From positions 1-23,460 of IMG/VR virus record IMGVR_UViG_3300047560_000534: a DNA stretch of 23,460 bases, one strand, 5' to 3'. Shown piece by piece: positions 9,136-23,460 of the stretch (position 1 is its first letter; each line of letters opens with the position of its first letter). Under the pieces are notes generated by a model. The model made no database searches. It saw nothing but the letters and a program-made list of their open reading frames with translations, and was not told the origin of the DNA. This DNA comes from a virus. A program made the position numbers and the translations under genes.

Positions 9136-11745
9136 TCATGATCTATTTACACTATCGTCAAGATTTAGGGTTGGGTTGACAATAGTTCCAACTTGTGTTG
9201 ATTGATAGGTTGTAATCTGAGTTGCAGCATATGGAGTAATTTCACCGTTATTTTCTTGGATACCAGCTGATGTTACATTGCCACCAACAACCGTATCTGT
9301 TGCTGAAGCTGTTTCAGCAATTTGAGCACCCAGTAATACGAGGGCTCCTGTAGCATCATCAACATATACTGGCTCAGTTCCGGATGTTGCGTCTGTTATA
9401 CCAGCACCAACAACCGTATCCGTAGATGTTATCGACTCAGTTCCAGTATCAAGTGTGACAGAAACATATGTTCCTACGACACTATCCGTAGATGTTATCG
9501 ACTCAGTTCCAGTATCAAGTGTGACAGAAACATATGTTGCATCTGGTAAGCTATCAGCCGCTGTTACAGATTGGGTACCAGTTGTTAGATTACCTGAATT
9601 ATATGTAGCATCCGTAGCATCAGTTGAAGTTACGGATTCAGTTCCAGCTGTCAGATTACCTGATCTATATGTGGCTGCAAAACTGTCTGTTACACTAATA
9701 GTTTCTTCATGACCAACGTTCTTCGTAACTTCAGCGCTTGGGAATGAATCTGTAGATGTTACGGATTCTGTTCCCGTAGTACCAGATGTAATTTTACCAC
9801 CAACAACTGTATCTATCGCAACAACTGATTCATCAACTTCAACATCTTGTATATTTGAATATGATAGACCTGTAATGATATAATTTGGCGCTGTCGAATT
9901 GATAATCAATTCGTTGAAACGTTTTGTTCCTGCTGGATGCAGCGTTTTTTTGATAATCTCGCTGTACTTCTCAAGAGCTTCGGATACACGAAGAACGTAT
10001 GAAAATTCTTGATAGTAATAGTTATCCTGTAGCTTGTTGTTCCAGCTTAGGAAACCTTTTGTATCAACATAACGTCCTGGGAATGTAACAATACCAGATG
10101 GAATTGGTTGTGATTCGCCAGAGAATGTTTTTTGTCTACGAAGGTAACGATTAGCATTTCCACCAGATACGTTAGCCGAAGTATATGTCTTTACAATAGC
10201 AGTATTACCCTGCGATAGATTTAGCAGAGTTGCATTTTCAAATCTATTGAAGTTTTGACCAGGTGAAATGATTCTTAGTTTCTTGATTGCGCCAGGAGCA
10301 GGGTTCACAGATACTGTTGCGTTTCTTCCGATATAGCTGCTATATCCATCATACACGTTTAGCGGAGATGTTTCCGTATCGATGATTGTGATTGTTGGTA
10401 AAACAGTATATCCATATCCCGGATTGATGATTGCGATGGCATTGATTGCGTGATAGTTGCTGGCGCTGAACTTGAGAGCGTTGCCGATTGTGCTATATGC
10501 ATTAGAACCAGCAAGACCAGTATAAGCCAATGCACCAACAGTAATGTTTGTTGTTGCAGCAATTGCTGAAATGAATGTCTGTGCACTTGAAATAGAATGA
10601 ACACGTAATGTATTTGCACTTCCGTTTACACGGACAATGTCACCAACGTTTAGCTGTTCGGTAAAAGATGTTCCTTGCCCAACAACAGTATTAGAACCAC
10701 TTGCAATTTTTACTGTTCCGGTAAGTTTTGAACGAACAGAAGCTGTATTAGCTCCACCAGCAACAAAGAATGGTCCAGCACCAATTTGAACATTCTTGAG
10801 AGGTTCGATAATATCGATACCAAGTGTAACTGGAATTGACTCAAGCGTCCATGATGCAACTTTTGCTTGGAAACCAGTTCCGTTGCCGCCACTAATAATA
10901 AGTCTAGTGTTTTCTTTAGTATATCCAGAACCACTATTTGTGATTCGAATCTCAACACCTTCGCCAGTAGAAACAGTTTCTGTAACAACCGCACGAGCAG
11001 TTTCTGTTGAACCAGCACCGCCAATTTCAATAATATCATTTAGACTGTGATATGCGCCACCCTGAACAACTGTGGTTTCAATAAGAGAACCAACCTGCGC
11101 ACTAACAGTAACATAGTTACCAGCTTCATCAACAACGCGCTCGCCGTCAATAAATATACCAGTTACGTTTTCAACAACCATATCATAGATTGTCATACCA
11201 GCAGCGATTGTAGATGTAATACGTTGAACTAGCGCTGTTGCGCCAGACTGCACACCTCTTACGTTGGTACCACCAAATTGTTTTGGATTGAGTGAATATG
11301 GTTTACCAACACGCAGCTTTGTTTCTTGTACCCAACGACCATCTGAAGCACGAAGAATATCTTCGCCTGGATAATAAAACTCAAGCTCTGAGTCAAATAG
11401 CGCACGGAATAGAAAACGATAAGATTCTTGAGAGCCACGTGAACGATAGAACTCGCGGATATGTTTGGCTAACATACGCTTGTCAGCTAATACTTCTTTT
11501 GGAATATTGATCATAAACTCTTTGCGGAAATACTCCACAAAAGAATCCACGGTTCTATCAATATCCTTATTGTCACGCAGAGAACGAGCGGCGTTTACTG
11601 GATTGCCGCTTTGTTCCATATACTCAAAATAAGCTTTCATAAACGAAACAAATTGAGGCCCTTCCTCACGAATGAACCCAGGAAACTGAGTATCAATCTG
11701 TGAAGATATCTTTTTGAGTATGTCTTCTGCGCCTACGATTGCCAT
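9136..11745 (-). CDS. 7: Baseplate wedge protein gp7-like (869 aa) with C-terminal repeat tail
   Basis: The N-terminal 140 residues match the C-terminal part of T4 gp7. SRGSQESYRFLFRALF (about 103-118) corresponds to T4 TKGIEASYKFLFKVLY, and the preceding FVSFMKAYFEYMEQ corresponds to FEAFCEAYIQYLSD. A second match near residues 580-610 (SYVLRV...LHPAGTKRF) corresponds to T4 SYYVMKI...VHPVGFGF. The large N-terminal propeller of T4 gp7 (1032 aa) is absent. Beta modules fill the space between the matches: Gly-x-Gly-Tyr units, and residues 343-410 shared with gp8. The tail (about 640-825) is a tandem array of roughly 22-24-residue units around TGTESITSTD. The gene lies between gp6 and gp8, as T4 gene 7 does, and its ATG overlaps the gp6 stop (TAATG). 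Confidence 0.82.
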   Translation of the reverse strand: MAIVGAEDILKKISSQIDTQFPGFIREEGPQFVSFMKAYFEYMEQSGNPVNAARSLRDNKDIDRTVDSFVEYFRKEFMINIPKEVLADKRMLAKHIREFYRSRGSQESYRFLFRALFDSELEFYYPGEDILRASDGRWVQETKLRVGKPYSLNPKQFGGTNVRGVQSGATALVQRITSTIAAGMTIYDMVVENVTGIFIDGERVVDEAGNYVTVSAQVGSLIETTVVQGGAYHSLNDIIEIGGAGSTETARAVVTETVSTGEGVEIRITNSGSGYTKENTRLIISGGNGTGFQAKVASWTLESIPVTLGIDIIEPLKNVQIGAGPFFVAGGANTASVRSKLTGTVKIASGSNTVVGQGTSFTEQLNVGDIVRVNGSANTLRVHSISSAQTFISAIAATTNITVGALAYTGLAGSNAYSTIGNALKFSASNYHAINAIAIINPGYGYTVLPTITIIDTETSPLNVYDGYSSYIGRNATVSVNPAPGAIKKLRIISPGQNFNRFENATLLNLSQGNTAIVKTYTSANVSGGNANRYLRRQKTFSGESQPIPSGIVTFPGRYVDTKGFLSWNNKLQDNYYYQEFSYVLRVSEALEKYSEIIKKTLHPAGTKRFNELIINSTAPNYIITGLSYSNIQDVEVDESVVAIDTVVGGKITSGTTGTESVTSTDSFPSAEVTKNVGHEETISVTDSFAATYRSGNLTAGTESVTSTDATDATYNSGNLTTGTQSVTAADSLPDATYVSVTLDTGTESITSTDSVVGTYVSVTLDTGTESITSTDTVVGAGITDATSGTEPVYVDDATGALVLLGAQIAETASATDTVVGGNVTSAGIQENNGEITPYAATQITTYQSTQVGTIVNPTLNLDDSVNRS
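9280..9830 (-). repeat. Tandem repeats coding for TGTES-type units in the gp7-like tail
   Basis: About seven or eight degenerate units of 22-24 codons, each around TGT-E/Q-S-V/I-T-S/A-T/A-D followed by a short variable link. Two neighbouring units are exact copies at DNA level: 56 bp at 9417-9472 are identical to 9483-9538, with a 66-bp (22-codon) period. Outer units have diverged, so the inner pair is a recent duplication. Confidence 0.85.
10516..10719 (-). repeat. GTVK...GQGT...VGD module, copy in the gp7-like gene
   Basis: Codes for residues 343-410 of the gp7-like protein and matches residues 47-113 of the gp8-like protein (8159-8359). Identities include NT-x-VGQGT-x-F, QL-x-VGD and RVHSI-x-SAQT. 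At DNA level the two copies share an unbroken 18-bp stretch (10668-10685 and 8308-8325), which suggests relatively recent exchange. Confidence 0.8.
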
Positions 11746-14083: not shown

Positions 14084-14096
14084 CAGAAAAAAAGAC

Positions 14097-15460: not shown

Positions 15461-15748
15461 TTATCCTACCGTAACTGATCCGAGACCACTTGATGCGTTG
15501 GGTGCACAATGTGCGCCGCCCGGAATTGGGCACAGTGCATCTGCCGCTGCGCTATCTCCAACAACAATAATACCCTTGCCGTTGATTGTAATTGAACTGT
15601 GAGATGTAGACAAAGCTCCACCACCGTCGGTATTACCATCGCCGTCAACAGAAATCAATTTACCACCAGCATAAACTGTGGATTGACCTGATGCAATCGT
15701 TGTTGCTCCGCATGCGCGAGAGTCGCCGTCTCTATGAATTGCTGCCAT
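15461..15748 (-). CDS. 5.4: PAAR-repeat spike tip protein (gp5.4-like, 95 aa)
   Basis: A small Gly-rich PAAR protein: AAIHRDGDSRACGATTIASG at the start, then SSITINGKGIIVVGD and the end GGAHCAPNASSGLGSVTVG. Candidate metal ligands are His5, Cys13, His50, Cys73, His80 and Cys81. PAAR proteins form the sharp metal-stabilised cone on the tip of the gp5/VgrG beta-helix and make first contact with the outer membrane. T4 gp5.4 is of similar size. The ATG overlaps the stop of the beta-helix gene (TAATG), the partner it should sit on. Confidence 0.9.
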   Translation of the reverse strand: MAAIHRDGDSRACGATTIASGQSTVYAGGKLISVDGDGNTDGGGALSTSHSSITINGKGIIVVGDSAAADALCPIPGGAHCAPNASSGLGSVTVG

Positions 15749-16467
15749 TATGGATTCATCTGAATTGTGCTACCCTTGATCGTATTTGTTCCAGACGATT
15801 GAAGAGTCATTGTTCCGCCATTTGCTTTTACAGTTGTGCTTGCTCCAGAAGCAATACCCATATCACCACCAGCACCTAATCCCATTCCTGTTGTAGCAAT
15901 AGCTTGGAAGTCGCCGCCAGATAGAACTGCATAAGTTCCACCAGAGATAACAGTTGCTTCCGATCCTGTTGACTGGAAATATTCATTATTATTTGTTTCT
16001 GTTTTATTTCCGCCAGTTACTTCGTCGCGGTTACCTGATGTGCGATGAGCAGTCTTACCATTTACTTGTGTGCGCTGATCGCCGATAACTTCACGAAGCT
16101 CGTTGCCACCAACTTTTACTTTCAGATCGCCACCAACATTCAATTCATAATTACCATCGACATGCTGAATAACATTGCCTGTGCAGTAAATATTGATAGG
16201 TCCGTTGACTGTAAGATTGAAATCGCCGGTAACAATTTCATCACGACCCTTATCATTGAAGTCCTGACGACCACCTTTTGTTGTGGTAATCATTGCTCCA
16301 TCGTCTTTGATCTCAATAAATGTACCAGAAGCATGATAAACATGCACACGTCTATCGCCTGGCGTATTATCAATTTCGATAACATGTCCAGCTTCAGTCG
16401 TGTAGGTATGATTACCGAGATACTCGGATTTCTTACCGCCTGGTTCTTGTTGATTCCAACTTGCCAT
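15748..16467 (-). CDS. Central spike beta-helix protein, gp5 C-terminal-domain-like (239 aa)
   Basis: The N-terminus (HTYTTEAGHVIEIDNTPGDR, residues 20-39) matches T4 gp5 from VHTMETESGHIQEFDDTPGQ, where the C-terminal domain begins after the lysozyme. From about 80 to 170 come short beta-helix repeats of the V-x-G-N type (DFNLTVNGPINIYCTGNVIQ; DLKVKVGGNELREVIGDQRT). The last 70 residues are Gly/Ser-rich. This is the trimeric needle of the cell-puncturing device, encoded as a separate protein without lysozyme. It starts 9 nt after the 282-aa gene and overlaps PAAR. Confidence 0.88.
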   Translation of the reverse strand: MASWNQQEPGGKKSEYLGNHTYTTEAGHVIEIDNTPGDRRVHVYHASGTFIEIKDDGAMITTTKGGRQDFNDKGRDEIVTGDFNLTVNGPINIYCTGNVIQHVDGNYELNVGGDLKVKVGGNELREVIGDQRTQVNGKTAHRTSGNRDEVTGGNKTETNNNEYFQSTGSEATVISGGTYAVLSGGDFQAIATTGMGLGAGGDMGIASGASTTVKANGGTMTLQSSGTNTIKGSTIQMNP

Positions 16468-16476
16468 TATTATTCC

Positions 16477-17325
16477 TTATCCTGATAAACCACCAGCACC
16501 GAACGACATACCCGTTTCGGGTGAATAGACTCCTGTAATACCTGCTGGATTTGAACCAGTATTCCTAGCCGTTTCATTTAGTGCATCAATCGTATCTTGC
16601 GGTGAAGCTGCCGAATTGATGTTGTCTTTGATCGTTTCAGCGTCAAATCCGGTACCAGCAGAAGTTCCATTCTCAAGCATCTCTCCAGCAACTTTATCTA
16701 GGCTTGCAGCAGGGATAGCAACAGCTGCTAATGGATCAACTGCTTTATTTTTAACTCCAGCAGCTTGAACATTATTTTTGCGTACAGTCTTATCTCTGCT
16801 TTTAGCCATAGTATCTTCAGCACGTTCTTCGTTACCGCGACCTACAAGAGACGTAGATGCATCGTCATTCAAAGCTGGATGGACTGAAGGAACTGGAGCA
16901 ATACCATTTTTGCCACCAAACAATTTATCAAGACTAGCCATAAGCAAAGTAACAGTCGCAACCTTTTCTAATAGAGTTGGGTTCTGTTGCTGAACTTGAG
17001 TGGGAGTTGGTTCTGTAATTGTAAGACCAGTTTCTTTAGTTTCACTAGCGACAATAATATCTGTGGCTACATCGGACACATAAGCTTCAACCTGATATGT
17101 ACCTGGATAGAGCTTTTGCGAGAAATGTAGTTTCCATTTATTAGGTTTTACTGATTCATCCAGACCTAAATTACCATCGAATAGTTTATATTTTGTGTAG
17201 TTTACATAAACAGATAATGTCTGCTTTGGATTACCGTTTATATCGAAACGTTCAAAATCAACATATCCCGTAAGCATAGGAGATGTATTGGATGTAGCCA
17301 GAGGTGTAATACTAATTTCAGCCAT
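16477..17325 (-). CDS. Unknown protein (282 aa) in the slot of the gp5 lysozyme domain
   Basis: I do not recognise the family. Residues 1-105 look like an immunoglobulin-like beta-sandwich (FERFDINGNPKQTLSVYVNY; KWKLHFSQKLYPGTYQVEAY; ending GLTITEPTPTQ). Next is one amphipathic helix (about 118-140, TLLEKVATVTLLMASLDKLF). The rest is low-complexity, charged then Ala/Gly/Ser-rich and probably disordered, ending SFGAGGLSG. There is no phage-lysozyme Glu-Asp-Thr motif as in T4 gp5, and no other hydrolase motif I can name. The ATG overlaps the stop of the gp5 OB gene (TAATG) and the gene is followed by the beta-helix gene, so it replaces the middle of T4 gp5. A linker or adaptor in the spike is inference. 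Confidence 0.8.
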   Translation of the reverse strand: MAEISITPLATSNTSPMLTGYVDFERFDINGNPKQTLSVYVNYTKYKLFDGNLGLDESVKPNKWKLHFSQKLYPGTYQVEAYVSDVATDIIVASETKETGLTITEPTPTQVQQQNPTLLEKVATVTLLMASLDKLFGGKNGIAPVPSVHPALNDDASTSLVGRGNEERAEDTMAKSRDKTVRKNNVQAAGVKNKAVDPLAAVAIPAASLDKVAGEMLENGTSAGTGFDAETIKDNINSAASPQDTIDALNETARNTGSNPAGITGVYSPETGMSFGAGGLSG

Positions 17326-17714
17326 TACATTTTATCTCCAGAACCAACTGAATTCTGTTCGGTATCTTCTTTTTGCTGAATATGTGGTAATACTCCAAAG
17401 ACAATAGGAACTTGACCGCCGTCGCCATCCATAAAGAATCCGATCACTTTACTATTTTCGACAAGACCTGTCGGCGAGTGACCAACACCAGAAATAGCAG
17501 CAGAAGTCGTTGGCTGCATAACATAACACCACGGCAGCTGACTCGTTGGCAAGTCACCTTTATTATCCGTATGATGACCTTTGATACGGACTTTGATGCG
17601 ACCCATCTTTAGATTATCTTTCTGTCCCGAGAACTGACCAGTGCCGCGATCCTCGACCACGCCAATCCACCACTTCAATCCGTCTTGCCCAAGAACTGTG
17701 CCAAACTCAGCCAT
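17325..17714 (-). CDS. 5: gp5 N-terminal OB-fold domain as a stand-alone protein (129 aa)
   Basis: WWIGVVEDR, MGRIKVRIKGHH and LPWCYVMQPTTSAAISGVG match T4 gp5 WFVGVVEDR, LGRVRVRVVGLH and LPWMSVIQPITSAAMSGIG nearly residue for residue. The OB fold ends about residue 110 (VPIVFGVLP). In T4 this domain joins the gp27 trimer to the spike and continues into lysozyme and beta-helix; here the chain stops after a short charged tail. It follows gp27 by 2 nt, as expected for partners. Known as the gp5_OB / Gp5 N-terminal family. Confidence 0.92.
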   Translation of the reverse strand: MAEFGTVLGQDGLKWWIGVVEDRGTGQFSGQKDNLKMGRIKVRIKGHHTDNKGDLPTSQLPWCYVMQPTTSAAISGVGHSPTGLVENSKVIGFFMDGDGGQVPIVFGVLPHIQQKEDTEQNSVGSGDKM

Positions 17715-21763: not shown

Positions 21764-22531
21764 ATGCCATTCAATATCGAAGAATTCAATGCTAATATCT
21801 CACAAAGCGGTATTGCTTCCACGTCTCACTTTGAAGCGTGGATCATCGGCGGTCCTGGTGTATCCCCAAGTATTCTAAACAAATACGGTCTAAACGGTGG
21901 TATGCGCTTCCGCATCGAATCGATCAATCTACCTGGACGTAATCTTCAGACGCTTGACCAAAATTATCATGGTCCTGTCCGTCGTATTCCATATAAGTTT
22001 ACTCAGCAGCCCGTTACAATGAGTGTTATTCTTTCAAAGGATATGCGTGAGCGTGAAGTATTCATGCGTTGGCAAGACTTCTTTACTGGTCACTATAGAG
22101 ACAATCCGAATCGTGGTGTTATACCTGGTATGTTTGACGGTAAATATTATAAAGACGGTATTGGCACTATTGCTATTCTACAGTTCTCGCAGCCAATCGG
22201 TACGGATATGATGACTCTCGCTCGTATCGGATCGCAGGTTGTAACTAAATTCGTCAACCCAAATAGTACCGCTGGGCGTAATATCTCAGCCGGCGCACAA
22301 ATTGCAGCAGAAATTCTGCGAGCATTTGATGAACCTACCTTTGAGATTCAAAACACAATTACACTGGAAGAAGCATATCCCGTCTCCGTCAACGATATTC
22401 AAATGTCATGGGGTGACGAGGGATACGGCAAAATGCAGGTCGAAATCAATTATCGTTATTCTATCGAACATAATCAGAACTTCGGTAGCAGCGATCTATT
22501 CAACATGGAAAAAGCAAATCGTAAGAAATAA
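21764..22531 (+). CDS. 54: Tail-tube-fold protein, probably baseplate tube initiator gp54-like (255 aa)
   Basis: The first part (HFEAWIIGG, then MRFRIESINLPGRNLQTLDQ and QQPVTMSVILSKDMREREVF) and the end (SVNDIQMSWGDEGYGKMQVE) fit the gp19/gp54 tube fold, in which a target-strand pair and a final LxLxWD...QTFEVTLxY-type hairpin are typical. It is longer than T4 gp19 (163 aa) and shorter than gp54 (320 aa). Its place before gp26 and the expected tape-measure gene, with gp48 close by, favours gp54; a tube protein cannot be excluded. AGGAT lies 8 nt before the ATG, inside the end of the gp2-like gene. Confidence 0.62.
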   Translation: MPFNIEEFNANISQSGIASTSHFEAWIIGGPGVSPSILNKYGLNGGMRFRIESINLPGRNLQTLDQNYHGPVRRIPYKFTQQPVTMSVILSKDMREREVFMRWQDFFTGHYRDNPNRGVIPGMFDGKYYKDGIGTIAILQFSQPIGTDMMTLARIGSQVVTKFVNPNSTAGRNISAGAQIAAEILRAFDEPTFEIQNTITLEEAYPVSVNDIQMSWGDEGYGKMQVEINYRYSIEHNQNFGSSDLFNMEKANRKK

Positions 22532-22546
22532 TTGGAGTGAATTATT

Positions 22547-23257
22547 ATGGCATTACCTAAGTTATCAGCACCACGTTTTTCAGTTGAATTGCCATCAACA
22601 GGTCAGCGTGTTTCTTTTAGACCATTTCTAGTCAAGGAAGAAAAGGCGCTGCTTATGGCAGCAACTTCCAGCGATCAGAACTCGATGATTGATGCGGTCA
22701 AAGACGTTTTGGCAGCGTGTGTTTTAGATGATAATGTAAATGTATCCAATCTACCGTTCTTTGATCTGGAATATCTGTTCCTCAATCTAAGAGCTAAGTC
22801 GGTCGGCGAAGTCGTCAAGCTTGAATATCGTCATACTGGTGGAATGAATTATTCCGGTATTGAGTGTGAAGCGGTCACGCCAGTTGAGATCAATCTGGAA
22901 CGAGTCAAGGTCGAGAGAAACGAGAAGCATACTAATAAGATCAAGATCACTGATAATCTCGGTGTTGTTATGCGTTACCCAACGATCAGCGATATCAAGT
23001 TGGTTAGTGATGGTACCGATGAGCTAAAGATGATTGCCAAGTGTATTGTCTCGGTCTATGACGAAGAGAATGTCTATGAGCCGGATAATCTGCAAGATGC
23101 TGTGGACTTTATTGACTCGTTGAATACTCAGCAGTTCGCTAAGATCATGGAGTTTATTGCTACGATGCCAAAGCTAAAGCATACGTTTAGATATAAGTGT
23201 AAGGGCTGTGGGCAAGAAGATACGGTCACGCTGGAGGGACTGTCTGATTTTTTTTAA
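22547..23257 (+). CDS. 26: gp26-like baseplate hub / tail assembly protein (236 aa)
   Basis: Matches the T4_baseplate (gp26) family: RFSVELPSTGQRVSFRPFLV then KEEKALLMA near the start, a run of acidic helices, and a C-terminal zinc-ribbon-like half with CKGCG at 220-224, ending TLEGLSDFF. T4 gp26 (208 aa) is needed for hub assembly. GGAG lies 9 nt before the ATG. The gene ends GAT TTT TTT TAA; a perfect T TTT TTT slippery heptamer precedes the stop, and the 60-aa ORF is open in the -1 frame, so a frameshifted 297-residue product is possible. This resembles the two-product tail assembly chaperones encoded before tape-measure genes. Confidence 0.85.
   Translation: MALPKLSAPRFSVELPSTGQRVSFRPFLVKEEKALLMAATSSDQNSMIDAVKDVLAACVLDDNVNVSNLPFFDLEYLFLNLRAKSVGEVVKLEYRHTGGMNYSGIECEAVTPVEINLERVKVERNEKHTNKIKITDNLGVVMRYPTISDIKLVSDGTDELKMIAKCIVSVYDEENVYEPDNLQDAVDFIDSLNTQQFAKIMEFIATMPKLKHTFRYKCKGCGQEDTVTLEGLSDFF
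23233..23254 (+). promoter_or_regulatory. Candidate programmed -1 ribosomal frameshift site
   Basis: The zero frame reads GAT TTT TTT TAA, giving T TTT TTT at 23248-23254 directly before the gp26 stop. GGAGGG at 23233-23238, inside codons for Glu-Gly, lies 9 nt upstream, close to the place where Shine-Dalgarno-like stimulators sit for -1 shifting in dnaX. It has no start codon in range to serve. After a -1 slip the next codons are TTA then the ATG of the 60-aa ORF, with no stop between. Confidence 0.65.
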
Positions 23258-23439
23258 TGATCCTCTCTCATAATACACTAGCAAATTATTATCAGACTAA
23301 CTTTTCGTTGATGCAGCACCACAAATACTCGCTGAGTGATATCGATGGAATGATTCCGTGGGAGAGAGATATTTACGTCAAGATGCTTATTGAGCATCTG
23401 GAAAAACTAAAAGAAGAACAAGAAAAAGCAAGGCGATAA
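23257..23439 (+). CDS. gp51-like small hub assembly protein, likely -1 extension of gp26 (60 aa)
   Basis: The core LSDIDGMIPWERDIYVKMLI (residues 26-45) resembles the W-E-R-D/E-I/V-Y segment I know from short baseplate hub assembly catalyst (gp51-like) proteins. The last 17 residues are Lys/Glu-rich and helical. Its ATG overlaps the gp26 stop (TAATG), with no ribosome site at normal distance. It could be made by coupled re-initiation, by -1 frameshifting as a gp26 fusion, or both. The position right before the presumed tape-measure gene fits the second part of a tail assembly chaperone. Confidence 0.75.
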   Translation: MILSHNTLANYYQTNFSLMQHHKYSLSDIDGMIPWERDIYVKMLIEHLEKLKEEQEKARR

Positions 23440-23460
23440 ATGTCAAAGGAAGACGAAGAG
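23440..23460 (+). CDS. 5' end of next gene, probably tape-measure protein, partial
   Basis: ATG follows the TAA of the 60-aa ORF directly, with AAGG 6 nt upstream. Seven codons are visible (MSKEDEE). A tape-measure gene (T4 gp29 or a larger far-T4 type) is expected here because assembly-chaperone genes normally precede it. The visible residues neither prove nor exclude this. Confidence 0.5.

Follow-up and report, generated by a model that had tools for sequence, protein, structure and literature searches.

The window, i.e. the whole analyzed stretch of 23,460 nucleotides of IMG/VR virus record IMGVR_UViG_3300047560_000534, carries close to its 3' end a homologue of the T4 hub assembly factor gp26, followed by a 60-codon gp51-like ORF (23257-23439) that lies in the -1 frame relative to gp26 (Table 1). 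The gp26 product matches PF12322 (E 3.6e-66, 223 bits, cut-off 24.5) and phrog_150 (E 1.4e-70), and its gene ends in GAT TTT TTT TAA, with the zero-frame stop TAA occupying positions 23255-23257. The T run consists of eight T's (23248-23255) and includes the first base of this stop. The initial annotation had described T TTT TTT in zero frame directly before the gp26 stop as well as a -1 frame that is open from this slippery site through the 60-aa ORF to the next gene, and both descriptions hold: the heptamer is followed immediately by TAA, while the open stretch of the -1 frame begins at the slippery site, 7 nt 5' of the gp26 stop, and closes at the stop 23437-23439, the next ATG being at 23440. 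A virtual fusion that joins gp26 to the extension comprises the 297 residues that had been predicted for it. The match of the 60-aa ORF to phrog_634 (E 1.9e-27) identifies it as a genuine protein sequence. The ORF also matches positions 236-278 of the 282 positions of phrog_150 (E 2e-6), near the end of the gp26 profile, which suggests that phrog_150 contains fused members, T4 gp51 being one of them. The usual annotation of the extension is that of a separate 'gp51 / hub assembly catalyst'.

Table 1. Features at the gp26 junction of the window (positions of the whole stretch)
Feature	Position	Strand	Basis
Gene for the 255-aa tail tube protein, adjacent to gp26 on its 5' side	21764..22531	+	phrog_45, E 3.4e-16
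gp26 homologue, 236 aa, putative short chaperone (TAC-N; counterpart of lambda gpG)	22547..23257	+	PF12322, phrog_150
Internal Shine-Dalgarno-like GGAGGG, proposed 5' stimulator, 9 nt 5' of the heptamer	23233..23238	+	anti-SD pairing
Slippery heptamer T TTT TTT, gp26 frame	23248..23254	+	conserved in relatives as T TTT TTN
-1 frame extension, 61 codons (L-M-I-L-S-H-N-T-L...), C-terminal part of the putative long form	23254..23439	+	phrog_634, phrog_150
ATG that shares a base with the gp26 stop (TAATG); a free 60-mer could, but need not, start here	23257..23259	+	sequence
Next large gene, start only, cut by the window end	23440..23460	+	tape-measure-like in relatives

The slippery run at the gp26 end is more than a chance occurrence. 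It is the only run of eight T's in the window, for which shuffles lead to an expectation of 3.9, and TTTTTTY is present five times compared to 19.4 expected occurrences. Of the other T7 sites of the window, 9945-9951 is located antisense to a gene and 14086-14093 in an intergenic region. The codons at this position were analyzed in 37 representatives whose gp26 proteins are less than 45% identical, a selection that reduces shared descent without fully removing it. Given each gene's own codon usage, the combination of a preceding codon ending in T with TTT as the first Phe codon had a joint log10 P of about -19. Within the clade of the window, the third-position identity of the last three gp26 codons is 1.00, 1.00 and 0.89, respectively, versus an upstream mean of 0.49. 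With the amino acids at the gp26 end fixed and the codons not, codon choice around Phe-Phe is, as judged from these alignments, far from free, and the X XXY YYZ heptamer is conserved in zero frame beyond the effects of codon usage. The C-terminal Phe-Phe had been suggested to be the trace of a slippery site; T4 gp26 fits this suggestion, as it retains Phe-Phe in the non-slippery coding TTC TTT.

For a survey of relatives, 255 loci were gathered from viral contigs and phage records, and gp26 and the extension were each sought with their own profile. Both parts were found in 249 of these loci, every one of which has the extension in a -1 frame that stays open past the gp26 stop, with no +1, in-frame or gapped arrangement among them. 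Removal of junctions with at least 90% nucleotide identity left 158 distinct junctions. All except one of these exhibit T TTT TTN in zero frame 0-24 nt 5' of the gp26 stop (TTTTTTC in 85, TTTTTTT in 65, TTTTTTA in six and TTTTTTG in one of the 157), so that the combination of slippery heptamer and open -1 frame, for which an alignment of gp26-gp51 junctions had been proposed as a check, is kept in 157 of the 158. Nearly all relatives outside the T4 group thus appear, from their junction sequences, to make both chaperone forms by slipping on the T run. In the Ackermannviridae (L088, L089, L090, L093 and L094) the -1 extension is kept but the T6 heptamer is absent, and therefore another signal or reinitiation must act there. 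Kuttervirus heyday (L090) has ATT in the extension frame where others have ATG. In none of the 20 phage records examined is gp26 annotated as a joined gene, and from some the extension is missing entirely; in Aeh1 and Kuttervirus heyday the extension frame is present without an annotated gene.

The GGAGGG upstream of the heptamer exhibits an anti-SD pairing energy of -9.8 kcal/mol and is the strongest such position in gp26 (phase-matched controls, window rank 0.000). The initial annotation had noted that it serves no start codon, and indeed its distance of 18 nt from the ATG at 23257 is too large for an ordinary ribosome-binding site. In most of 32 dereplicated loci, a comparable SD-like element about 10 nt upstream of the heptamer ranks near the top of all anti-SD positions within the respective gene (mean rank 0.05); as evidence this element weighs less than the heptamer, since it follows in part from conserved Glu-Gly codons. 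No 3' stem-loop, a feature that -1 frameshifting does not always require, was detected in the window (z -1.1), and pairing of GGAGGG with the CCTCTC further downstream into a hairpin was not supported. The cyanophages P-SSM2 (z -5.5; L083:3220-3250) and S-8S56 (z -3.4; L095) contain a strong stem-loop 5-6 nt 3' of the heptamer that is likely to be a 3' stimulator; as a general stimulator the stem-loop was rejected, with z below -2 in just six of the 32 loci. A point against the shift is that U_UUU_UUU slips less readily than A_AAA_AAG in E. coli (PMC5009743).

Public records annotate the junction as two ordinary genes, which would mean that gp26 is accompanied by a separate 60-aa protein translated from the ATG at 23257 by termination-reinitiation at TAATG. 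The window does contain TAATG, with the ATG as codon 2 of the extension, an ATG is found in the stop-overlapping position in 36 of the 158 junctions, and 66 of the 157 have an ATG within the first ten extension codons. This arrangement leaves the conserved slippery heptamer, the universal -1 relation and the one-frame T4 gp51 unexplained, however, and the ATG at 23257 lacks a proper SD. Moreover, ATG, GTG and TTG are all absent from the first ten extension codons in 60 of the 157 junctions, and only GTG or TTG is available there in a further 31. The first possible start in the 60 start-less junctions is mostly codon 19-20, within the conserved core, yet the region preceding it is still conserved as protein, including residues L4, S5, H6, L9, N11, Y12 and Y13 (codons 4-13 with L in 48, H in 47, L in 53, N in 44, Y in 44 and Y in 45 of about 59) and a coding pattern of 0.56/0.66/0.41 for codon positions 1/2/3. 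Protein-level conservation at junctions without an early start means that the short 'gp51' cannot in general be an independent gene, and we consider two ordinary genes very unlikely. A frameshifted long form could also coexist with a free 60-mer made by reinitiation, resulting in three products in phages that retain the ATG, and both the heptamer and TAATG are indeed present in the window. The close relatives L013, L018 and L030, however, read TAATAG in place of TAATG (ATG to ATA); because of this loss the free 60-mer is not needed, and three products seem unlikely. Within the clade of the window, codon-position identity over extension codons 1-19 is 0.90/0.98/0.65. Extension codons 3-5 (NTC CTC TCT; window 23260-23268, equivalents in L003-L046) are near-invariant even at third positions in this clade, which exceeds the need of protein coding.

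Two further explanations are based on the homopolymer itself. RNA polymerase slippage, which is known in bacteria on runs of nine A or T (PMC5009743), could produce the long form on the T8 of the window in place of ribosomal frameshifting, and an assembly error in the form of a homopolymer indel could have split one real gene, as the break does fall at a homopolymer. The T run is just six T's long in 91 of the 157 junctions, mostly as TTTTTTC, which argues against polymerase slippage as well as homopolymer sequencing error. The SD-like element in addition fits ribosomes, making polymerase slippage highly improbable, and an assembly error is refuted by the survey, in which the same break was present in 249 loci including the isolate genomes of P-SSM2, Aeh1 and ValKK3, many of the loci with TTTTTTC.

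Ribosomal frameshifting at the end of gp26 is in agreement with the gene neighbourhood, as gp26 directly follows the tail tube gene, the usual setting of tail-assembly chaperones (TACs). Proteins of this class bind the tape measure and the tail tube, do not become part of the virion and have a long form that amounts to a few percent. An AlphaFold2 model of gp26 (pLDDT 86.7, built from 33 sequences) was compared with known structures by VIA-align. The best four matches of residues 1-90 were Rbstp2171 (3fgx; Z 8.3, 86 aa, 3.4 A), HK97 gp13 (2ob9; Z 7.2, 84 aa), YqbN (3klu; Z 7.0, 86 aa) and the PLE1 protein (5ir0; Z 4.5, 78 aa), with the next match at 2.6. The first three have been called TACs (PMC9603447), as has the PLE1 protein (PMC12987554). 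VIA-align Z values of 7-8 alone can arise by chance, and the weight of this comparison rests on all four top matches being TACs, according to which residues 1-90 are predicted to adopt the TAC fold. Foldseek of the gp26 model against the PDB returned E-values that were not significant, and a gp26 sequence search against the PDB likewise gave nothing significant. When a T4-type gp51 model was used for the fold search, the best Z was 3.9, to an unrelated protein, with no TAC among the matches listed, a result that excludes nothing. Together with the 157 of 158 junctions, the predicted TAC-type fold supports the central proposal of the initial annotation, namely that gp26 and the gp51-like ORF are a G/GT-type chaperone pair joined by -1 frameshifting.

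The downstream gene, which in relatives encodes 500-940 aa and starts within a few nt of the extension end, is likely to be the tape measure. Wall-hydrolase domains are clear in the clade of the window, and a weak tape-measure match was obtained in KVP40-like phages. In the post-chaperone gene (L005:3899-6124, L034:3888-6641) a VgrG3-like C-terminus, VanY and peptidase M15 were observed, the peptidoglycan-hydrolase domains varying between close relatives. The counterpart of the T4 gp5 spike is split between two genes of the window (15748-16467 and 17325-17714): one gene of 129 aa encodes the OB domain (phrog_430 positions 15-113), another of 239 aa the beta-helix (phrog_430 positions 330-538), and the ORF of 282 aa between them (16477-17325) is unmatched. 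No lysozyme match was found, and the hydrolase domains of the post-chaperone gene perhaps stand in for the missing gp5 lysozyme.

T4 genes 26 and 51 are divergent, which rules out a frameshift at gp26/gp51 in T4 itself. In the alignment with the virtual fusion, T4 gp51 was covered from end to end (hhalign probability 99.3, E 2e-20), and it matched positions 13-280 of the 282 positions of phrog_150 (E 2.6e-84); gp26 and gp51 align with each other, too. Based on the full-length alignment, T4 gp51 corresponds to the long form encoded in one frame, and T4 would accordingly possess a short form plus a separate one-frame long form that consists of a gp26-like domain and the tail. The initial annotation had extended the chaperone pair to gp26 and gp51 of T4-like phages in general, one being the frameshifted extension of the other; this stands for the relatives (157 of 158 junctions) and fails for T4 with its divergent genes and one-frame gp51. 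The shift at T TTT TTN is probably ancestral in T4-like viruses, with the T4 group having lost it by means of a long form encoded separately in one frame; the short ORFs annotated as 'gp51 hub assembly catalyst' would then mostly be C-terminal extensions rather than genes. We infer this direction of change from the presence of the shift site in Kyanoviridae, Pootjesviridae, Menderavirus as well as Aeh1 and KVP40-like Straboviridae; the gp26/gp51 tree, which is unrooted and has long branches, does not settle it.

Taken together, the window very probably encodes a short and a long tail-assembly chaperone by means of a -1 ribosomal frameshift at T TTT TTT. Comparison of sequences shows the shift site and how well it is conserved, the coding character of the -1 frame even ahead of any start codon, and the one-frame fusion that T4 gp51 represents; the TAC fold is a prediction, and we infer the shift itself, its ratio and the chaperone action of the products. 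Most ribosomes would end at TAA 23255-23257 and release the 236-residue short form (TAC-N). In a minority, the 16S rRNA would pair with the GGAGGG just passed, the ribosome would slip back one base at the heptamer, both Phe tRNAs would re-pair on TTT TTT, and shifted reading (TTA ATG ATC CTC TCT CAT...) would continue for 61 codons to give the 297-residue long form (TAC-NC). As in lambda, the tape measure protein would be coated by short and long forms, the extension serving to recruit subunits of the tail tube.

The idea of frameshifting in T4-like chaperones is not new. Before 2022, the G-T frameshift was described as widely conserved, with T4 named as the exception (PMC5009743). The identification of T4-like tail chaperones is credited to Vladimirov, Gautam and Davidson (2022, Virology 566:9-15) by PMC10885494 and PMC12846349, the latter also citing this work for poly-T sequences as an established -1 signal of the TAC-N genes in T4-like phages. 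As relayed in PMC10885494, their account agrees with T4 encoding the short form and, separately and in one frame, the long form. Priority therefore belongs at least in part to that work, and the window represents a well-supported further example of a known mechanism. The small 'gp51' ORFs of cyanophages and of many uncultured T4-like viruses would be explained as chaperone extensions, and routine annotation could be corrected to gp26 and extension as a joined gene. This would also place gp26 and gp51, the classical hub-assembly factors of T4, within the general scheme of tail chaperones, T4 gp51 being a fusion that occurs naturally in one frame.

The heptamer of lambda is G GGA AAG. The window and lambda gpG/gpGT are alike in having a short form and a -1 fusion, while the heptamer and the sequence family differ and the extension of the window comprises just 61 codons, unlike lambda gpGT. 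In lambda, gpG is the short form and gpGT the low-frequency -1 fusion, the gpG part of which binds the tape measure and the T part the tail tube protein (PMC5009743). Pakpunavirus Adele and the Andersonviridae have a conserved poly-T -1 shift at the TAC-N end, and the -1 frame is open in every genome (PMC12846349); the poly-T -1 shift is shared with the window, whereas the GTTTTT motif and the phage families are different. HK97 gp13, YqbN, Rbstp2171 and the PLE1 TAC share the predicted fold of gp26 residues 1-90 at 6-12% identity, and gp26 differs from these four by about 145 further residues without a clear PDB match. T4 gp26 and gp51 belong to the same protein family as the products of the window, the gp26 homologue and the C-terminal extension being shared; T4 encodes its two forms in divergent genes, gp51 in one frame, while the window would use one gene and a -1 shift.
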